In this document: in pieces, positions 14,594 to 22,162 of the stretch
Numbering within the stretch: the first letter of the stretch is position 1
How the letters are laid out: each line of letters opens with the position of its first letter
Program-made: the position numbers and the translations under genes
Source of the DNA: an uncultured Schlesneria sp.
Lineage (GTDB): Bacteria > Planctomycetota > Planctomycetia > Planctomycetales > Planctomycetaceae
NCBI GenBank assembly: GCA_903858935.1
Contig: CAIOKO010000032.1
Location: 1 to 64,000 of the forward strand
Length of the DNA stretch: 64,000 bases
Reading direction: 5' to 3'
Notes under the pieces: model-generated
The model's input: the letters and a program-made list of their open reading frames with translations, nothing else
Databases searched by the model: none
What the model was told of the DNA's origin: nothing

Positions 14594-14825
14594 ACGTCGC
14601 ATATAAACCAGTCTCCGATTTCAACTCAAAATCAGATTCCCGTCACAGGCACAGATCTCAACTGAGTAGATCTGCCGCCCGGCTCGTCGTTTGATTTCGT
14701 TTTCGAATTTTAATTCGTTTTTTGTCCCATAAGAAATCGGCCGAATCGAATGGGATTTTCCCAGAAAGCTTCGGATCGGCTTTTGCATCGTCTCAATGGC
14801 CCCGTCAGGGTTGGAACGGTTATTC

Positions 14826-15659
14826 ATGGCAATCGTTTTCCGCTGTGACAAATGCGATGCACGCTATCGAGTTGAACTCGTTAAGGCGGGTTGTCGTGCG
14901 ACGTGTCGACGTTGCGGTAACGATATCGTTGTTCCCGACCCGATGCCGCGAGACCAGGTTCTGGATATCCCCGCACTTCAGGATCGACGTCAGCCTTCGC
15001 TTCTTTTGGCGCCACCTGATCCGACAAGAACGCGTCTCATTTCCGAGCACATCGAAGAACACATTGGACCGATCGACTTTGTTTTTCACGAACGTGTTTC
15101 AGAATATGTCCATATCGACGTACTTCGTGTCCCCCCGCAGAAACACCGGCCCTTCTATACACTCGTCACAAGCGGTATGTCAGAACAGTCGATGAACGTT
15201 CCTGACGGAGCCGAATCCTTGCGGCGAACGGAATTAATGATCTGCCTTCCGCCGAACTGGCGGTTGAGCATTGAAGACTTTCGAGACGAGCGAAATTACT
15301 GGCCGATTCGATTGCTGAAAGTACTGGCGCGATTACCGCATGAGTTCCGGACCTGGCTGGGACTCAGCCATTCTGTGCCAAACGGGGAACCACCGCGCCA
15401 CTACGCACCCAACACGAAATTCTGTTGCTCAATCATTGTTCCACCCCTGACATGCCCCGACCCATTTCGTACGCTGACGATCAATGACGAACAAATCATC
15501 CACTTCTACGCCGTACTGCCGCTTTACCGCGAAGAAGTGGACTGTAAACTGCGAGAAGGAATGAGCGTCCTGATCGATCGGCTTGACCGATACCGGGTGA
15601 CGGAAATCGTGAATATCTACCGACAAAACACCTGCCGAACGGGTTGGTTCGGCAGGTGA
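14826..15659 (+). CDS. Zinc-ribbon plus SUFU (suppressor of fused) domain protein
   Basis: A 277-residue cytosolic protein. The N-terminus (residues about 6-28) has a four-cysteine zinc ribbon, CDKCDARYRV then CRATCRRCG. From about residue 65 the protein matches the SUFU domain: YTLVTSGMSEQSMNVPDGAE, LMICLPPNW, the block NYWPIRLLKVLARLPHEFRT, SHSVPNGEPPRHYAPNTKFC, and near the end VLPLYREEVDCKLREG. In animals SUFU restrains the Hedgehog effector GLI. Bacterial SUFU proteins are widespread, and some are thought to act as immunity proteins in toxin systems; no toxin gene is adjacent here. The start at 14826 puts the zinc ribbon at the N-terminus; the frame extends to 14796. The last codons overlap a terminator hairpin. 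Confidence 0.88.
   Translation: MAIVFRCDKCDARYRVELVKAGCRATCRRCGNDIVVPDPMPRDQVLDIPALQDRRQPSLLLAPPDPTRTRLISEHIEEHIGPIDFVFHERVSEYVHIDVLRVPPQKHRPFYTLVTSGMSEQSMNVPDGAESLRRTELMICLPPNWRLSIEDFRDERNYWPIRLLKVLARLPHEFRTWLGLSHSVPNGEPPRHYAPNTKFCCSIIVPPLTCPDPFRTLTINDEQIIHFYAVLPLYREEVDCKLREGMSVLIDRLDRYRVTEIVNIYRQNTCRTGWFGR
15629..15658. terminator. Bidirectional terminator hairpin at the end of the SUFU gene
   Basis: CACCTGCCGAAC (15629-15640), loop GGGTTG, GTTCGGCAGGTG (15647-15658): a perfect 12-bp stem. It overlaps the 3' end of the SUFU gene and lies between two convergent genes, so it probably stops transcription from both sides. An A-rich run (ACAAAA) precedes it and AATTATTT follows. Confidence 0.75.
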
Positions 15660-15690: not shown

Positions 15691-16689
15691 TTATTTGACG
15701 CGGACCAGTTTCATCAGTCGACCGGACACGTTCCAGTCCTGGACGTACAGGTTTCCGTCCTTGTCCCAGTAGGAACCATGTGTGCCGCTGAAGATTCCTT
15801 CAATCCACTGGTCTTGAGGGATGCCGTAGTTCGCTCGTTTTGCGGGATCAGGGTTATGGCCGAGAACGGCGATAATCGTGTTGCTCTTGTCCAGAATGAC
15901 AACTCGGCCGTGAAGATCCGGTACGGAAACATAATCTCCCTGAACCGCAGCGGATGTTGGCATACCCAGGCCGGTGACAATTTCTTCGATGAACTCGCCA
16001 TCGAGACTGTAGTGCAGCAGCCGGCCCTTTGGCACGTGGTTACGGTCGCAAATCAGCAGACGAGGTGGCTCGTACCGAGTATCCAACGTCATCCCGTGGG
16101 CCGTATTGAACTGCTTAAGATCGTTCCCTTTAGTGCCAAAGTGCATCAGGTATTTTCCGGTTTTGTCGAACTTGAAAATATGATTACTCGCGTATCCGTC
16201 GGACAGGAAAATATCGCCGTTGGGGGCGACGGTGATCGCGGTCGGACTGAATTGCTTCAAGTCGAGTCCCGACTCTTTTGGAAACGGAAGCTTTAAAGCG
16301 ACAGCACCCGTTTCGGCATTGAACTTGATCCCTTCGGCATTCGCGTTTCGAGCACCGTAAATGTACTCGCCATCCGCTTCGACTCGAATTTCCATGTCAT
16401 GGAGTCTTGTATAATCACCCTCGAGGAAACGGCGAATAACCTTGCCGTCAGGCGAGAAGACAAAAACACCCTGATCTGCGCTGGTATAGATGTTTCCCGC
16501 TTTGTCTATCACAACGCCGCCGTGGGTCGGACCAATGACAGATTTCCCTTCGGGGCTGAGACCCCAACCGGGGACTGTGTCAAAGGTCATGATCCCGCAT
16601 CCCATGCGCACGGGTTGACCTTTTTCGGCTGCGAAGATCGATTGCGAAAGCCCGAATAAAACCGCAGCGCAAACCAGTAGTCTCTTCAC
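15691..16689 (-). CDS. Exported NHL-type six-bladed beta-propeller protein
   Basis: A 332-residue protein. The signal peptide follows a GTG start (VKRLLVCAAVLFGLSQSIFA); GGGAG lies eight bases upstream of that GTG, whereas the longer frame would need a TTG at 16704. The body shows repeated NHL-like blades: HGGVVIDKAGNIYTSADQGV, FSPTAITVAPNGDIFLSDGY, AHGMTLDTRYEPPRLLICDR, and at the end GSYWDKDGNLYVQDWNVSGR. Relatives include peptidyl-alpha-hydroxyglycine amidating lyase and SMP-30-like folds, but no catalytic assignment is possible. Single gene, convergent with SUFU and separated by a shared terminator. Confidence 0.85.
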   Translation of the reverse strand: MKRLLVCAAVLFGLSQSIFAAEKGQPVRMGCGIMTFDTVPGWGLSPEGKSVIGPTHGGVVIDKAGNIYTSADQGVFVFSPDGKVIRRFLEGDYTRLHDMEIRVEADGEYIYGARNANAEGIKFNAETGAVALKLPFPKESGLDLKQFSPTAITVAPNGDIFLSDGYASNHIFKFDKTGKYLMHFGTKGNDLKQFNTAHGMTLDTRYEPPRLLICDRNHVPKGRLLHYSLDGEFIEEIVTGLGMPTSAAVQGDYVSVPDLHGRVVILDKSNTIIAVLGHNPDPAKRANYGIPQDQWIEGIFSGTHGSYWDKDGNLYVQDWNVSGRLMKLVRVK

Positions 16690-17023
16690 GATCAAAACTC
16701 CCAATTTTAAAAAGTGCGTACAACGATGATTGCAGCCACGATCAACAGGCCATCAAAACGGATTACGCCCGAGTCGCGAAGACGCGGAGAACAGTACAGA
16801 TAGCGATGAATGTGGTGACGATCGAAAGCCCGATTCCACAGGGCGATCGGATTCTCTTCGATTACGCATCGCAATTCAATAATGCGTTGGGATCGATCAG
16901 CCTCGAATCATCAAGTGGAATCAAATGATCAACTTCCGCTGACTTCAAAAGTTCAGCAAGTGACCGGTATCGTTTGAGTGATTCTCGGAATCTGAATGTC
17001 GATACACTCGCTTTGATACCTGG
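16690..17023. other. Intergenic region between the propeller and M56 genes
   Basis: About 330 bp without a credible gene. A long-loop inverted repeat spans its end: GTGACCGGTATC (16960-16971) against GATACCTGGTCAC (17015-17027), one bulge. It overlaps the stop of the M56 gene and may be a weak terminator. The promoter of the propeller gene should lie in the left part, but no clear box was identified. Confidence 0.4.
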
Positions 17024-19321
17024 TCACCAGAGATCACGGGAAATTAAATCCTCGGCCTCGATGCACGGGGAAATCTGATAGACGAGATCGATCACACCAG
17101 GCTCTTCCAACCAACGCGGAACAGGCTCAATATGAGCAAGTAAATGCCCTCTCTGGTCGAATACAGACGTTATGGCATCAACATCCCGATCAATCTCCGT
17201 GGCGTTGTAAAATGCGCCGTCAGTGACTTTCAAAACATTCCGAATTTCCGATGCGGGAACCATCAAGTTCCCAATAAACTCAACATGTCGAATTTTGTAG
17301 CGAACCCCTTGGGTAATCAGGTAACGGATTATGGGTGTCGAACGACCTTTTGGCGTCTTCATTTCGTGTGAAACATCAACGTCGAAATATCCGAATCGAT
17401 GGAAATACCGCCTGAATTGTTCGGTGTCATTTGCGACATCGTTGAAATCATAATCTGCACTCGTGGCAAGCGTCATGATGGGAGTTTTTGAAATCGGTGT
17501 AGCATCGATAATGGCGGAATCCGTCATAACGGCTCCACTAAACCTCAAAGTCGAGACGTGAACCTTGGGCCCCTCGTTGATGGAAAAGACCACGTCCCGG
17601 TCGTTTCGATCGTCCCCCTTCTCAAGTTCGACCGTGGCGAACAGAAATCCCTTTTCGCGGTAGTATTCTTCAATCCGCCTGGCGCATTCCTGATTGGAAG
17701 AAACATCAAACGGAGTACCTGGCTTAAGCTGGGTCATCGCATCGAAGACTTTTCGCTTTATCTTCTTCAAGCCTTTGTATTCAACGCGCCGAACGATCGG
17801 GCGTTCAAGTACGCGAAAGGCCAGAACAACACCGACATCCGTTTTTCGCAGCGTCGGTTCGACACTTGAGAACCAGCGCGTTCTCACAAGCGCATCAACA
17901 TCGTCTTTAACCAGCTTTGACGTCACCTTATCACCGATGCTGGCCTTGATGTGTTTGGCAATTTCGGAACTCTGGATTGTTGAATTCCCCTCAATAAGGA
18001 CGTCGACGAGGAGCTCATTCATGACAAAATCAGACTCGCCAGCGGCATCAGTCCCCTCTGCGTTCACGAGTGGCGTCGCATCAACAATCGAGTCCCGACG
18101 CGCGATGTCACGTGAATCAATCACTTTCGGGGATTCAGTTTTCGAGTCGCGATGAGATCTGAATGCGATTGACACCAGAATTAATATTCCGAGGACGGCA
18201 GCCAAACCGCTGAAACCGGATCGGGTCAACTGAGGCTTCGATTCCGCTGATTCACCGGCTAAACGGAGAATCCGTTGTCTGAAATCCGATGAGCCACGTC
18301 CAAACGCGGAGATGGAAATCGGTGCGACGACGAGCGGTTGTCGCGGCATGGCACACGCTTCCGCCAGGCCGATCAACGCTCGACAATAATCCAGCGGACG
18401 CCAGCCAGTCGAAATGACCAGATCATCACAGGCGTGCTCTCGTTCGATGCTGATGCGACGGCTGACGTACCAGACCGCCGGATGAAAAAAAAGTAGCGCC
18501 TCAACGACCCTTTGAGCCAGGTTGACGAGCAAATCCCAACGTCGAATATGAGCCAGTTCATGGGCCAGCAGGGCTTCCAGTTGATCAACGTCACAGCCAG
18601 TCATGAGACAGGGTGGGAGCAAGATCATTGGCCGTAAGACGCCAATCACCACGGGGGCAGCGACCTGTTGGCAGGATGCCACAACCGGCACCACGCTCAT
18701 CGCCCACTGTTCGCAAAGTCGTTCGACAAACAGCTGAAGTCGGTCATTCACGATTTCGATGGAATCCGCTTTGAATTTCCACACGACGGAATATCCAACC
18801 CCGACGCGACATAAGAGGGCCAAGCTGACCATCAGATACACGGCCATCACGTAAGGCGACACGCGTTCGATCAATTGGTTACGGAAGTCCGACCTCGTCC
18901 ACTTTCGAATCGAATCTTGTCGCATGAATGCTTCGAACGGTGGGGTAATGCTTCTTATTTCACTTTCTTGAGCGTTCAGTGGCAGTGAGGGCTTGATTTC
19001 ATTTGATGCCAATTGGTTGTGACTGGTTGACGGTTCACGGAAAACCTCGGATTGCGTGATGTGTGTCAAATTCCCGGACGAAAAAAGAGCGAATGTCACC
19101 GGAGGACAAACCGCGAGTAATGCCATCGCAGCCAGCCCTGCGATGTAACGTGAGTTCGCCGTGTTCTTTCGTAGTGCTAAATTGACGAAATAATATAACG
19201 CGCCAATCAGGCACCCTTGCCAACTGAAATGTGCAAGGGCTCTTGTCAGACGGACACATAGCGGGCCGCCGAAATCAGCTAGAACTGAACTGAAAATCGT
19301 TGAAACGATGGCGAGAGTCAT
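17024..19321 (-). CDS. BlaR1-type M56 metallopeptidase fused to POTRA-like repeats
   Basis: A 765-residue membrane protein. Residues about 25-300 resemble BlaR1/MecR1: several membrane segments, then HELAHIRRWD with the zinc motif HELAH at 254-258, and ISIEREHACDD at 291-300. A further membrane segment lies at about 374-388. Instead of a beta-lactam sensor, the outer part (about 437-755) looks like a series of roughly four POTRA domains as in BamA. Typical phrases are VRRVEYKGLKKIKRKVF, ARRIEEYYREKGFLFATVEL and FSINEGPKVHVSTLRF, then HVEFIGNLMVPASEIRNVL. No outer-membrane barrel follows. Its start codon overlaps the stop of the upstream BlaI repressor (ATGA), so the two are translationally coupled. 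I infer that it senses something extracytoplasmic and inactivates BlaI. Confidence 0.88.
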   Translation of the reverse strand: MTLAIVSTIFSSVLADFGGPLCVRLTRALAHFSWQGCLIGALYYFVNLALRKNTANSRYIAGLAAMALLAVCPPVTFALFSSGNLTHITQSEVFREPSTSHNQLASNEIKPSLPLNAQESEIRSITPPFEAFMRQDSIRKWTRSDFRNQLIERVSPYVMAVYLMVSLALLCRVGVGYSVVWKFKADSIEIVNDRLQLFVERLCEQWAMSVVPVVASCQQVAAPVVIGVLRPMILLPPCLMTGCDVDQLEALLAHELAHIRRWDLLVNLAQRVVEALLFFHPAVWYVSRRISIEREHACDDLVISTGWRPLDYCRALIGLAEACAMPRQPLVVAPISISAFGRGSSDFRQRILRLAGESAESKPQLTRSGFSGLAAVLGILILVSIAFRSHRDSKTESPKVIDSRDIARRDSIVDATPLVNAEGTDAAGESDFVMNELLVDVLIEGNSTIQSSEIAKHIKASIGDKVTSKLVKDDVDALVRTRWFSSVEPTLRKTDVGVVLAFRVLERPIVRRVEYKGLKKIKRKVFDAMTQLKPGTPFDVSSNQECARRIEEYYREKGFLFATVELEKGDDRNDRDVVFSINEGPKVHVSTLRFSGAVMTDSAIIDATPISKTPIMTLATSADYDFNDVANDTEQFRRYFHRFGYFDVDVSHEMKTPKGRSTPIIRYLITQGVRYKIRHVEFIGNLMVPASEIRNVLKVTDGAFYNATEIDRDVDAITSVFDQRGHLLAHIEPVPRWLEEPGVIDLVYQISPCIEAEDLISRDLW

Positions 19322-19713
19322 TTCTGCTGTTCCTTCGTTTTCTGGTCCAGAATCTGCCGCAGTTCCTTCAATTCGTCGGAGTCCAATTCCGTTGATTCGA
19401 ACAGACTGAGCATCACCGCTTTGGCCGATCCGTCAAACACTCGCTTGACGACATCACCCAGCATCCCTTCGGTCACCGCTTCGCGAGAAACTTTCGCAGC
19501 AAACAAACAGGATTTTCCCTGCATCGACCGTGTCAGGTATTTTTTGCCAACCATCACATTCAACGTCGTGATCACGGACGTATGAGCCAGCTCTCTTCCT
19601 GCCTTAGACAACGATTCGCGAATCTCTCGCACAGACATCGGCGAGCATTCCCACAGGCATTTCAGGATCTGTAATTCCAGATCTGTGGGATGAATTGATT
19701 TTGGTCTCGCCAT
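19318..19713 (-). CDS. blaI: BlaI/MecI-family transcriptional repressor
   Basis: A 131-residue winged-helix repressor of the BlaI/MecI/CopY family. Recognisable parts are LELQILKCLWECSPMSVREI, TSVITTLNVMVGKKYLTRSM and the C-terminal dimerisation region with AVMLSLFES. In known systems the repressor dimer is cleaved when the M56 partner is activated. The ATG at 19713 is the preferred start; a TTG at 19734 would add seven residues. It overlaps the M56 gene by four bases and is preceded by two TCTTCTA-N6-TAGAAGA dyads, fitting autoregulation. I use the name blaI for the family; there is no beta-lactamase gene in the window. Confidence 0.9.
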   Translation of the reverse strand: MARPKSIHPTDLELQILKCLWECSPMSVREIRESLSKAGRELAHTSVITTLNVMVGKKYLTRSMQGKSCLFAAKVSREAVTEGMLGDVVKRVFDGSAKAVMLSLFESTELDSDELKELRQILDQKTKEQQK

Positions 19714-19736: not shown

Positions 19737-19758
19737 ATCTTCTATTTCGATAGAAGAT
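19737..19758. promoter_or_regulatory. Operator-like dyad 1 upstream of the BlaI gene
   Basis: ATCTTCTAT, TTCG, ATAGAAGAT: a perfect 9-bp inverted repeat. Its core TCTTCTA-N6-TAGAAGA is identical to that of dyad 2. It lies 23 bp upstream of the repressor ATG. The expected reader is the BlaI dimer encoded next to it. Confidence 0.75.
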
Positions 19759-19786
19759 AGCGATCGAAGAACCTCAACGCAAGAGA

Positions 19787-19806
19787 TCTTCTACATAACT
19801 AGAAGA
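19787..19806. promoter_or_regulatory. Operator-like dyad 2 upstream of the BlaI gene
   Basis: TCTTCTA, CATAAC, TAGAAGA. Same half-sites and same six-base spacing as dyad 1, with centres 49 bp apart. Two identical half-site pairs with unrelated spacers point to a conserved protein-binding site rather than chance. Confidence 0.75.
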
Positions 19807-19952: not shown

Positions 19953-21077
19953 TCAACGGAGGACTGGCAAAAGTTCTGCGACCTGATTGATCTTCTGAAC
20001 GGGCTCTTCGTCGATGTGCTCGTAATACACGTTTCGCTGGCGAGGAATATAGCCCGCTTCCCGGATCAGCCGTTTGATCGTTTCGAGTGTCAGGTGGTGA
20101 ACGGTTCCCGCTTCAGCCACAACATTTTCTTCGATCATCAGCGAGCCCATGTCGTTGGCTCCAAAATGCAGAGCCAGTCCGCCGATCTTCTCCCCTTGCG
20201 TCACCCACGACGACTGAATGTTAGGGAAATTGTCCAGATACAATCGGGAGACCGCCTGGGTCTTGAGATATTCGAACGCTCCGACGGGGGGGATGTTCGC
20301 CATGTCCGTGTTATCGGGTTGAAATGTCCAGCAGATATAGGCGGTAAAACCACCTGTTTCGTCCTGAAGCTGACGAAGCCGTTCGAGATGCTCGATCCGC
20401 TCTGCCAGCGTTTCAATGTGCCCGAACATCATGGTCGCAGAACCCTTGCCACCAAGCTGATGCCATTCGTGGCAGACATTCAACCATTCGTCCGACATGC
20501 ATTTGCCGCGTGTCATCTCTTTTCGTACGCGGTCAACAAGAATTTCGCCACCGCCACCCGGCAAGCTTCCCAAGCCGGCAGCCTTCAATCGCTCAAGCAC
20601 AGTTCGCACCGGAAGCTTTTCCAGCTTGTGCAAAGCATGAATCTCCGGTGGTGAGAAGCAGTGAAGATTCACCTGCGGAAATCGTTCCTTCAGAGATCGA
20701 AGCAGGTCTTCGTACCATTCGAGCGGCAAGTCGGGATTCATCCCCCCCTGCATCAGGATCTGATCACCACCAAGTGCCACGGTCTCTTCGATTTTTTTGT
20801 AAATCGTTTCTTTATCAAGCACATACCCTTCAGGACTCTTCGGTCGGCGGAAGAACGCACAGAAATCACAGACCGCCGAACAGACATTGGTGTAGTTGAT
20901 ATTGCGGTCGATGTTGTACGTACGGTAAGGCTCGGGATGCAGGCGCTTTGACACCGCGTCCGCCGCCTCACCAATCGCCACCAGATCATGCGATTCAAGA
21001 ATCTGCAAACCTTCGGCAGGAGTTAATCGCCCCCCGGACACGGCTTTTTCAAGTAATCGGTTCACTGCTGTAGACAC
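19953..21077 (-). CDS. mqnC: Cyclic dehypoxanthinyl futalosine synthase MqnC
   Basis: A 374-residue radical SAM enzyme of the futalosine pathway for menaquinone. It cyclises dehypoxanthine futalosine. The iron-sulfur cluster motif is C66-x3-C70-x2-C73 (NYTNVCSAVCDFCAFFR). Other family blocks are GGDQILMQGGMNPDLPLEWY, LHCFSPPEI, LPGGGGEILVDRVRKE, ATMMFGHIET and LHFGANDMGSLMIEENVV. The length and motifs distinguish it from MqnE and CofH. The start is a GTG at 21077 with GAGGGA six bases upstream. It lies 44 bp downstream of mqnA on the same strand, so both are probably one operon. No mqnB or mqnD is in the window. Confidence 0.92.
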   Translation of the reverse strand: MSTAVNRLLEKAVSGGRLTPAEGLQILESHDLVAIGEAADAVSKRLHPEPYRTYNIDRNINYTNVCSAVCDFCAFFRRPKSPEGYVLDKETIYKKIEETVALGGDQILMQGGMNPDLPLEWYEDLLRSLKERFPQVNLHCFSPPEIHALHKLEKLPVRTVLERLKAAGLGSLPGGGGEILVDRVRKEMTRGKCMSDEWLNVCHEWHQLGGKGSATMMFGHIETLAERIEHLERLRQLQDETGGFTAYICWTFQPDNTDMANIPPVGAFEYLKTQAVSRLYLDNFPNIQSSWVTQGEKIGGLALHFGANDMGSLMIEENVVAEAGTVHHLTLETIKRLIREAGYIPRQRNVYYEHIDEEPVQKINQVAELLPVLR

Positions 21078-21121
21078 GTCAATTCCCTCATTCCAATTTC
21101 ACGCTGACATTTTTACGAAAT

Positions 21122-21940
21122 TCACGCAACAGGCCTGAACGCCATTTCTACACCCTTCGGGGCCAGATCCAGTCCCGCTGCCAATTCGTAAAACATTTTC
21201 AAACCGCTCCTCTCGGCATTACCGAGATGAAACTGAAGATTCCTCGATAAGTAGCTGATCGTTGTCGGAAACGACAGTCCCAGCAATGGCGCTTCCCGGA
21301 GAGCAATCTCATTCAGGTGGGCAACTCCAAGATCCCGCGACCGGCATAAAGCCCTCGAAACCGTGTCAATGTCTGCTTCGGATCGTCGTGCGCGAACATT
21401 TGCGACCCACATCGCGAAGACAAACGGCAGGCCGGTCCACTTGTGCCACTCTTCACCCAGATCCAGCGTCGCAAGAAATCGCTCTTTTGGAGGCAGGATC
21501 GCTCGGTCGCCAATCAGCAATACGGCATCCGCTGTTGTATCCTCGGTGCGATGGTTGAGCGGCAATGGTTCCAAAGCGGGAAAAACACCATGTCGCTCTG
21601 CCAGCAAAATTCGAGCGAGCGTGGCGCTGGTACGGGAACCCTCATCGAGCGCCAATGTGCGTATTTCGCCCCAAGGGACTCTCGTGTAAAGCTTTACGCT
21701 CAAGACTGGGCCGTGAGCTGCCACACAGGCGTCCGAAATAATCTCGTAATCGTGACCTCGGAAGTATTCAATACTGGGAACAAGTGCGATGTCCAGCTTG
21801 CCTGAAACCAGGTGATCCGCCAACCGGCTGGGAAAATCGAGACGAATTTGGGTCTCGGGAAGCAATTCCGCCAGCCCTTCGACCAGTGGTTTTGAGTTCA
21901 GGTAGCTGACCGCGCCGATTCGTAAGTCCGTTTCCGACAT
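21122..21940 (-). CDS. mqnA: Chorismate dehydratase MqnA
   Basis: A 272-residue protein of the MqnA/MqnD family, converting chorismate to 3-enolpyruvylbenzoate at the entry of the futalosine menaquinone pathway. The N-terminus LRIGAVSYLNSKPLVEGL is the family signature. It is followed by LDIALVPSIEYFRG, LYTRVPWGEIRTLALDEGSR, DAVLLIGDRAI and WHKWTGLPFVFAMWV, matching MqnA rather than MqnD. I chose the ATG at 21940; the frame is open to 22054, but the extra 38 residues are unrelated to the family. It is directly upstream of mqnC and divergent from hom, with a shared upstream region of about 220 bp. Confidence 0.92.
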   Translation of the reverse strand: MSETDLRIGAVSYLNSKPLVEGLAELLPETQIRLDFPSRLADHLVSGKLDIALVPSIEYFRGHDYEIISDACVAAHGPVLSVKLYTRVPWGEIRTLALDEGSRTSATLARILLAERHGVFPALEPLPLNHRTEDTTADAVLLIGDRAILPPKERFLATLDLGEEWHKWTGLPFVFAMWVANVRARRSEADIDTVSRALCRSRDLGVAHLNEIALREAPLLGLSFPTTISYLSRNLQFHLGNAERSGLKMFYELAAGLDLAPKGVEMAFRPVA

Positions 21941-22162
21941 CTTCGTTCCGTGAATTCGTCCGACCGGCACAGCCACCCTTTCGGAGGGGTAGGCTCGTTC
22001 TGGCAAAGTTGGTGTGCGAGTTTTCATGATTCCGTCGTGTTGGTAATCCCTCAATTCGGCGATTAGGATGCGTCATCCCGTCGCGGCTGACAAGGAAAGA
22101 ACCGTTTTGTGACGCCGGATTTAACGGGTGACATGGAAAACGACAAGTTCGGAAAGCGATTT

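Follow-up and report, generated by a model that had tools for sequence, protein, structure and literature searches.

Recurrent capture of BamA POTRA domains by BlaI-coupled M56 receptors of planctomycetes points to a possible new sensor of outer-membrane assembly

We describe here a two-gene locus on a 64,000-nucleotide stretch of DNA (the window) from an uncultured Schlesneria, whose 7.9 Mb genome (G000) is spread over 280 contigs and is most closely related, among named genomes, to MAGs of uncultured Schlesneria. The larger gene (17024..19321, minus strand) begins with ATG and encodes an intact frame of 765 residues. Residues 1–392 (18145..19321, minus strand) form a membrane and protease half, assigned from helices, motifs and a match to BlaR1, and residues about 435–752 (17066..18019, minus strand) form four POTRA domains that are recognized by Pfam, PDB search, AlphaFold and NCBIfam alike. 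Directly upstream and on the same strand is a gene for a BlaI/MecI-family repressor (19318..19713, ATG at about 19713; PF03965, E 3.5e-27), and its stop codon and the start codon of the receptor share bases (ATGA). The repressor matches BlaI (1sd4) and MecI (1okr) in the PDB, and the N-F dipeptide that is cut in staphylococcal BlaI is not conserved in it. There is very little doubt that the larger product is a BlaI-coupled M56 protein with four BamA-type POTRA domains as its C-terminal half. A propeller gene downstream (15691–16704) was considered as a further member and rejected; it is 320 bp away and was not found beside the receptor gene in the related genome G006. Two other genes of the window are recorded here in their own right. 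One (14796–15659, plus strand) encodes a SUFU (suppressor of fused) domain protein that is 92–96% conserved in relatives, and the other (19953–22054, minus strand) is an MqnC/CofH-like radical SAM gene (PF19288, PF04055) adjoining an mqnA-like gene, which suggests a futalosine route to menaquinone.

The N-terminal half matches Peptidase_M56 at residues 141–332 (PF05569, E 1.6e-26), and in the AlphaFold model transmembrane helices at about residues 20–49, 55–82, 147–186 and 367–390 lie around a gluzincin domain, with residues 25–348 matching Staphylococcus aureus BlaR1 (8exs) at Z 20.6 in VIA-align. The HELAH motif is intact at 254–258, and E295-X3-D299 completes the gluzincin signature. All six fused proteins of this M56 clade retain H254, E255, H258, D263, E295, D299, Y312 and R350. 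By their spacing these correspond to BlaR1 H201, E202, H205, D210, E242, D246, Y261 and R294, residues that the paper on the structure of BlaR1 (PMC9834060) singles out as important. BlaR1 has an Nout/Cout topology and cuts BlaI directly (PMC9834060). The four helices of the receptor and its short positively charged loop (49–58) are compatible with the same topology, and the POTRA domains would therefore sit in the periplasm. The receptor is predicted to work like BlaR1 and yet to be no sensor of beta-lactams, since the penicillin-binding (class D-like) domain is missing: Pfam finds no transpeptidase domain in the receptor, and the NCBIfam model blaR1_generic scores 70.7 bits against a cut-off of 400.

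In the C-terminal half, Pfam marks four POTRA stretches (PF07244, E 7e-36), residues 440–753 match BamA POTRA 1–4 in a phmmer search of the PDB (E 1.5e-20), and the NCBIfam BamA model TIGR03303 covers the receptor at model positions 5–318 only, which is POTRA 1–4. POTRA 5 is absent by both NCBIfam and Pfam, the Omp85 barrel (PF01103) has no match, and the chain stops after POTRA 4. The AlphaFold model of the full receptor, built with 21 sequences, has a mean pLDDT of 70.5, and a POTRA-only model with six sequences brought no improvement; residues 430–761 match BamA POTRA 1–4 at Z 12.8 (VIA-align). Single domains superpose on BamA at 1.4–2.1 Å, and the large rmsd of the whole array arises because the inter-domain angles differ. 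The approximate limits are 436–507 (P1), 508–585 (P2), 586–672 (P3) and 673–752 (P4). POTRA 3 is the weakest domain in the window copy, with a divergent stretch at about residues 584–613 where the pLDDT is under 50, and it has only 31% identity to POTRA 3 of the BamA of its own genome. These results bear out an earlier note on this DNA, which had proposed a BlaR1-like half with an intact HELAH followed by about four BamA-type POTRA domains with neither a beta-lactam-binding domain nor a barrel, and no fold other than POTRA was predicted for the region from residue 430 to the C-terminus. Three other Schlesneria MAGs contain orthologues that are likewise fused rather than split into separate genes, at 65–72% identity and with conserved, syntenic flanks; the sharing of the fused gene by four MAGs rules out an accidental fusion or an assembly chimera.

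Upstream of blaI lie two perfect 20 bp dyads of the form TCTTCTA-N6-TAGAAGA. Operator 1 (19738..19757, TCTTCTATCGAAATAGAAGA on the minus strand) overlaps the probable -10 (TATCTT, 19754–19759), and operator 2 (19787..19806, TCTTCTAGTTATGTAGAAGA on the minus strand) is just upstream of the probable -35 (TTGCGT, 19777–19782); these promoter elements were assigned by eye and are separated by a 17 bp spacer. In an alignment of six genomes both dyads keep their positions; those of G004, G006 and G007 contain some mismatches. TCTCTTG between the dyads and CTTCTAT at the second dyad are conserved as well. The arrangement is that expected of an autorepressed BlaI promoter, and we take the dyads as the putative BlaI binding sites. 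The earlier note had further supposed that the repressor controls other genes through this operator, and here the genome gives it no support: the only two sites at zero or one mismatch in 7.9 Mb are those at the blaI promoter, sites at two or three mismatches in G000 are fewer than in a reversed-pattern control, and no operator was found near bamA. A wider regulon through this operator was accordingly rejected, and the strict regulon is the blaI-receptor operon itself. One site at two mismatches is common to four genomes and was set aside as a regulon member; in G000, the genome in which it was read, it falls within the coding sequence of groEL. Separately, six loci of G007 (L148, L153, L156, L158, L159 and L160) contain palindromes resembling TCTTCTAAACGTTTGGAAGA, which differ from the operator by one mismatch and follow a different pattern; they are possibly the sites of another repressor or a repeat.

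The source of the sensor domains is close at hand. We detected one BamA in the source genome (locus L087, G000:C228), with POTRA domains and an Omp85 barrel, and the sensor is 57% identical to its POTRA 1–4. Within the genus, we found the fused gene in G000, G001, G004, G005, G006, G007 and G012, and not in the other members scanned, about half of the genus. In a maximum-likelihood tree of POTRA 1–4, the G006 sensor pairs with the G006 BamA (support 99.3/100), the G007 sensor with the G007 BamA (90/96), and the G012 sensor groups with the BamAs of G011 and G012 (96.9/99); the four sensors of the window clade group together next to their own BamAs. The M56 halves tell a different history, with the window clade, G006 and G007 forming one clade (98.9/100) and the M56 half of G012 being sister to a neighbouring PpiC-type M56 gene (99.6/100). 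A single ancestral fusion behind all of the POTRA arrays is rejected by the AU test, both for all seven sensors (p 9e-47) and for the six with orthologous M56 halves (p 1e-10). Grouping G006 exclusively with the window clade (p 1.5e-4) and grouping the G006 and G007 sensors (p 0.01) are also rejected, and only the union of G007 and the window clade survives the test (p 0.10). We therefore regard the sensor array with high confidence as a copy of POTRA 1–4 of the resident BamA. Because sensors on orthologous M56 halves pair with their own BamAs, the POTRA domains have been replaced or converted from BamA within one receptor at least once, and probably more often. We note that only the resident genome can be the source of a recent capture, and the likeness of a sensor to its own BamA therefore speaks for recency and recurrence, and not by itself for matched function.

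Two further observations concern the genes compared above. The PpiC-type neighbour in G012 (L086 4914–7097, G012:C67) is an M56 receptor with a C-terminal rotamase domain of the SurA/PrsA class; it adjoins the M56-POTRA gene, which ends also in HEAT repeats, and one BlaI-type gene precedes both. BamA itself appears to be split into adjacent POTRA-only and barrel-only Omp85 genes in one family of the class (f5), as in L095 (877–2805 and 2588–4165, G040) and L096 (904–2529 and 2588–4177, G049). In G049 each of the two proteins has its own signal-peptide-like start, and POTRA-only frames of 481–590 residues in G054, G057, G199, G337, G359 and G363 may be split BamAs too.

The architecture is not confined to the genus. 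A scan of 170 genomes of the family and an even draw of 398 genomes of the class, which partly overlap, found it in 13 planctomycete genomes in all, on at least five M56 backbones, with P1–4, P1–2, P3–4 or P1 alone, and a BlaI-type gene adjoins every M56-POTRA gene found. The receptor of G070 has P3–P4, those of G119 and G022 have P1, those of G145 and G147 have P1–P2 plus an STN-like domain, and that of G443, from another family, has P1–P4 with P3–P4 doubled. The best BamA match lies in the same genome for G070 (48%; next best 37%), for G443 (47%, with 46% for a congener and at most 32% for other genera), and for the single POTRAs of G119 and G022, where the margin over other BamAs is small; for the G145 and G147 sensors it lies in the same genus. 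The M56 part of G147 is broken across frames in a draft contig, and this copy may be damaged or mis-assembled. In the M56 tree, which omits G443 and G147, G119, G022, G012, the G070/G145 pair and the window clade are on separate branches, and the simplest count is about seven acquisitions plus at least one replacement. More cases may exist, since the search detects only POTRA domains that are still similar to the query. Second matches in G022 (G022b, L128), G247 (L201) and G356 (L204) have no M56 motif and were discarded.

The neighbours of the blaI-receptor pair differ around G006, so that the conserved unit is the two genes. This, together with operators that occur only in the system's own promoter and the existence of arrays lacking a covalent barrel in a related family with split BamA, fits a model in which the work is done by the inner-membrane POTRA array itself, as a docking site or a holding chaperone that passes clients to BAM, and BlaI and the M56 half do no more than autoregulate its dose. 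We think this quite improbable, as a complete protease active site and a paired repressor exceed the needs of an anchor, and partial arrays (P1 only, P3–4) also occur.

Several receptors retain what look like donor footprints. At the end of the G006 sensor stands MMGPVPINIDFAV, identical at 12 of 13 residues to a strand near the barrel end of its own BamA, and the G007 sensor retains the start of POTRA 5. The motif GVNS(D/N)AG precedes POTRA 1, in the linker, in the receptors of G145 (L143) and G147 (L144), and occurs also in that of G443 (L210); elsewhere in the scanned ORFs it is found only at the start of the BamA barrel. The match of the G012 tail to BamA is not significant. As read from these sequences, the footprints would fit capture of longer pieces of bamA followed by loss of the barrel.

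After capture, the receptor evolves several times faster than its neighbours, with POTRA 2 and the active site conserved. By the Nei-Gojobori method, which is rough where dS is near or above 1, dN/dS in the four window-clade genomes is 0.02–0.10 for the flanking genes and blaI and 0.29–0.37 for the receptor at similar dS. POTRA 2 is strongly constrained (about 0.06–0.1), the M56 part is intermediate (about 0.2–0.4) and POTRA 3 is nearly free (about 0.5–0.9); BamA is at about 0.01–0.1, and no domain has a value above 1. Parts of some sensors look younger than the rest. POTRA 2 of the G006 sensor is 96% identical to that of its own BamA (dS 0.27), where P1 and P4 have dS of 1.31 and 0.93, and the G004 sensor is like its own BamA up to and including P3 and like the other sensors in P4. 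Gene conversion from BamA is apparently the simplest reading of such renewed patches, with the alternative for G004 that the other three sensors have diverged in P3. The G001 and G005 sensors (L035 and L036) share an insert in POTRA 3, and dS between them in P2 and P3 (0.17 and 0.32) compares with 1.14 and 0.60 for the two BamAs; this likeness runs against the order of the BamA tree, and suggests that P2–P3 was exchanged between the species of G001 and G005.

The same evidence bears on two further explanations. M56 proteins accept many unrelated C-terminal modules: among 33 surveyed in planctomycetes and others, CarboxypepD_reg occurs in 12, WD40 in four and HEAT in three, with AhpC/TSA in the first member, and POTRA may therefore be one of many accepted modules. 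Under non-adaptive or loosely selected shuffling, ectopic recombination would supply these C-termini, BamA would often be the donor on account of its conservation, and the POTRA domains would have no specific role in sensing assembly. The extreme diversity of the C-termini, the fast divergence of POTRA 3 and the M56 half (dN/dS 0.3–0.9) and the several genus members that lack the gene agree with this; the retention in six genomes of an open frame, the full catalytic set, the operator pair and POTRA 2, the recurrence of one donor across at least five M56 backbones, and sensor patches apparently renewed from BamA do not, and we consider shuffling unlikely. Another possibility follows the decoy domains that occur in plant NLR receptors: the POTRA copy would bait a toxin, inhibitor or competitor factor aimed at the POTRA domains of BamA, and binding would trigger the response. 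Repeated capture with apparent renewal from the target gene, rapid divergence of P3, patchy presence and the apparent exchange of P2–P3 between G001 and G005 could all be read in this way. However, no dN/dS exceeds 1, no immunity or defence gene was recognized beside the receptor gene, and we know of no POTRA-targeting agent in these bacteria, and we give a decoy only a slim chance.

The explanation that we favor is that the receptor is a sensor of outer-membrane assembly, although we regard this as about evenly balanced between right and wrong. The POTRA array would hang from the inner membrane into the periplasm and bind the ligands of BamA POTRA domains, such as a BAM partner, a chaperone like SurA or unfolded segments of outer-membrane proteins. 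Its occupancy would rise when assembly is overloaded or fails, so that this periplasmic bait would report the amount of unbound client or partner, and the occupied sensor would activate the M56 protease, leading to cleavage of BlaI and derepression of the blaI-receptor operon. As only its own operators were found, the output would be a self-amplifying operon, or targets reached through degenerate sites. Support from sequence and structure extends to the repressor, the switch and the receptor half; the bound ligand, the cutting of BlaI and the physiological output are what we infer. The origin of the sensor in BamA gives the assembly-sensor idea a real basis, and a function of this kind would also be consistent with the choice of the same donor by unrelated receptors, with the apparent conservation of POTRA 2 and the active site amid drift elsewhere in the protein, and with the folding-helper domain, presumably periplasmic, that is predicted on the M56 receptor beside the G012 fusion. 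Against a sensor role are the lack of an operator near bamA or other genes, the absence of the gene from about half of the genus, the many unrelated modules accepted by planctomycete M56 proteins and the non-conserved N-F dipeptide of the repressor. A broader proposal, which we offer tentatively and would not expect to hold, is that this receptor class repeatedly copies, and renews by gene conversion, the domain array of the essential machine that it guards (BamA), with the sensor thereby staying matched, as either a sensor of BAM workload outside sigma-E and Rcs or a bacterial counterpart of the integrated decoy.

Both parts of the architecture, the M56-BlaI receptor and the POTRA of BamA, are well known by themselves. 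Repeated capture of the resident BamA arm by unrelated M56 backbones is undescribed as far as the open literature shows; in open-access papers, a scope that leaves out most subscription papers, we found no description of the M56-POTRA combination, its repeated origin or its apparent renewal from a resident gene. To our knowledge, the sensing of outer-membrane assembly in diderms outside Proteobacteria is largely unknown, as are the ligands of most M56 receptors, beta-lactams aside. A sensor copied from the client-binding arm of BamA makes both directly testable, and the natural series of P1 only, P1–2, P3–4 and P1–4 lets one ask which POTRA domains carry the signal.

Among known systems, the closest are BlaR1/MecR1 with BlaI/MecI of Staphylococcus and Bacillus licheniformis, which share the four-helix membrane gluzincin with HEXXH and EXXXD motifs, a C-terminal extracytoplasmic sensor (predicted here), an adjacent BlaI-type repressor and paired palindromic operators at their own promoter. 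They differ in that here four BamA POTRA domains replace the penicillin-binding sensor, the operon lacks a beta-lactamase or PBP gene, and the staphylococcal N-F site is not conserved in the repressor. There would nevertheless be a parallel in logic, as the BlaR1 sensor is a homologue of the enzyme family that the drug targets, and the POTRA domains of BamA are the arm that meets its clients and partners. With BamA (Omp85) the receptor shares POTRA 1–4, by its identity to the resident protein and its TIGR03303 and PDB matches, but it has neither POTRA 5 nor barrel, and its M56 half is predicted from the model to anchor it in the inner membrane. The planctomycete M56 receptors with other C-termini (CarboxypepD_reg, WD40, AhpC/TSA, HEAT, PpiC) have the same interchangeable C-terminal module, usually beside a BlaI-type gene, whereas here the module has been taken repeatedly from the outer-membrane assembly machine. 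The sigma-E/DegS-RseA and Rcs/RcsF envelope stress systems of E. coli (reviewed in PMC13067283) have the purpose proposed here, reporting trouble in outer-membrane assembly, and sigma-E is likewise protease-driven, but there is no homology, and both the receptor and the output are different.
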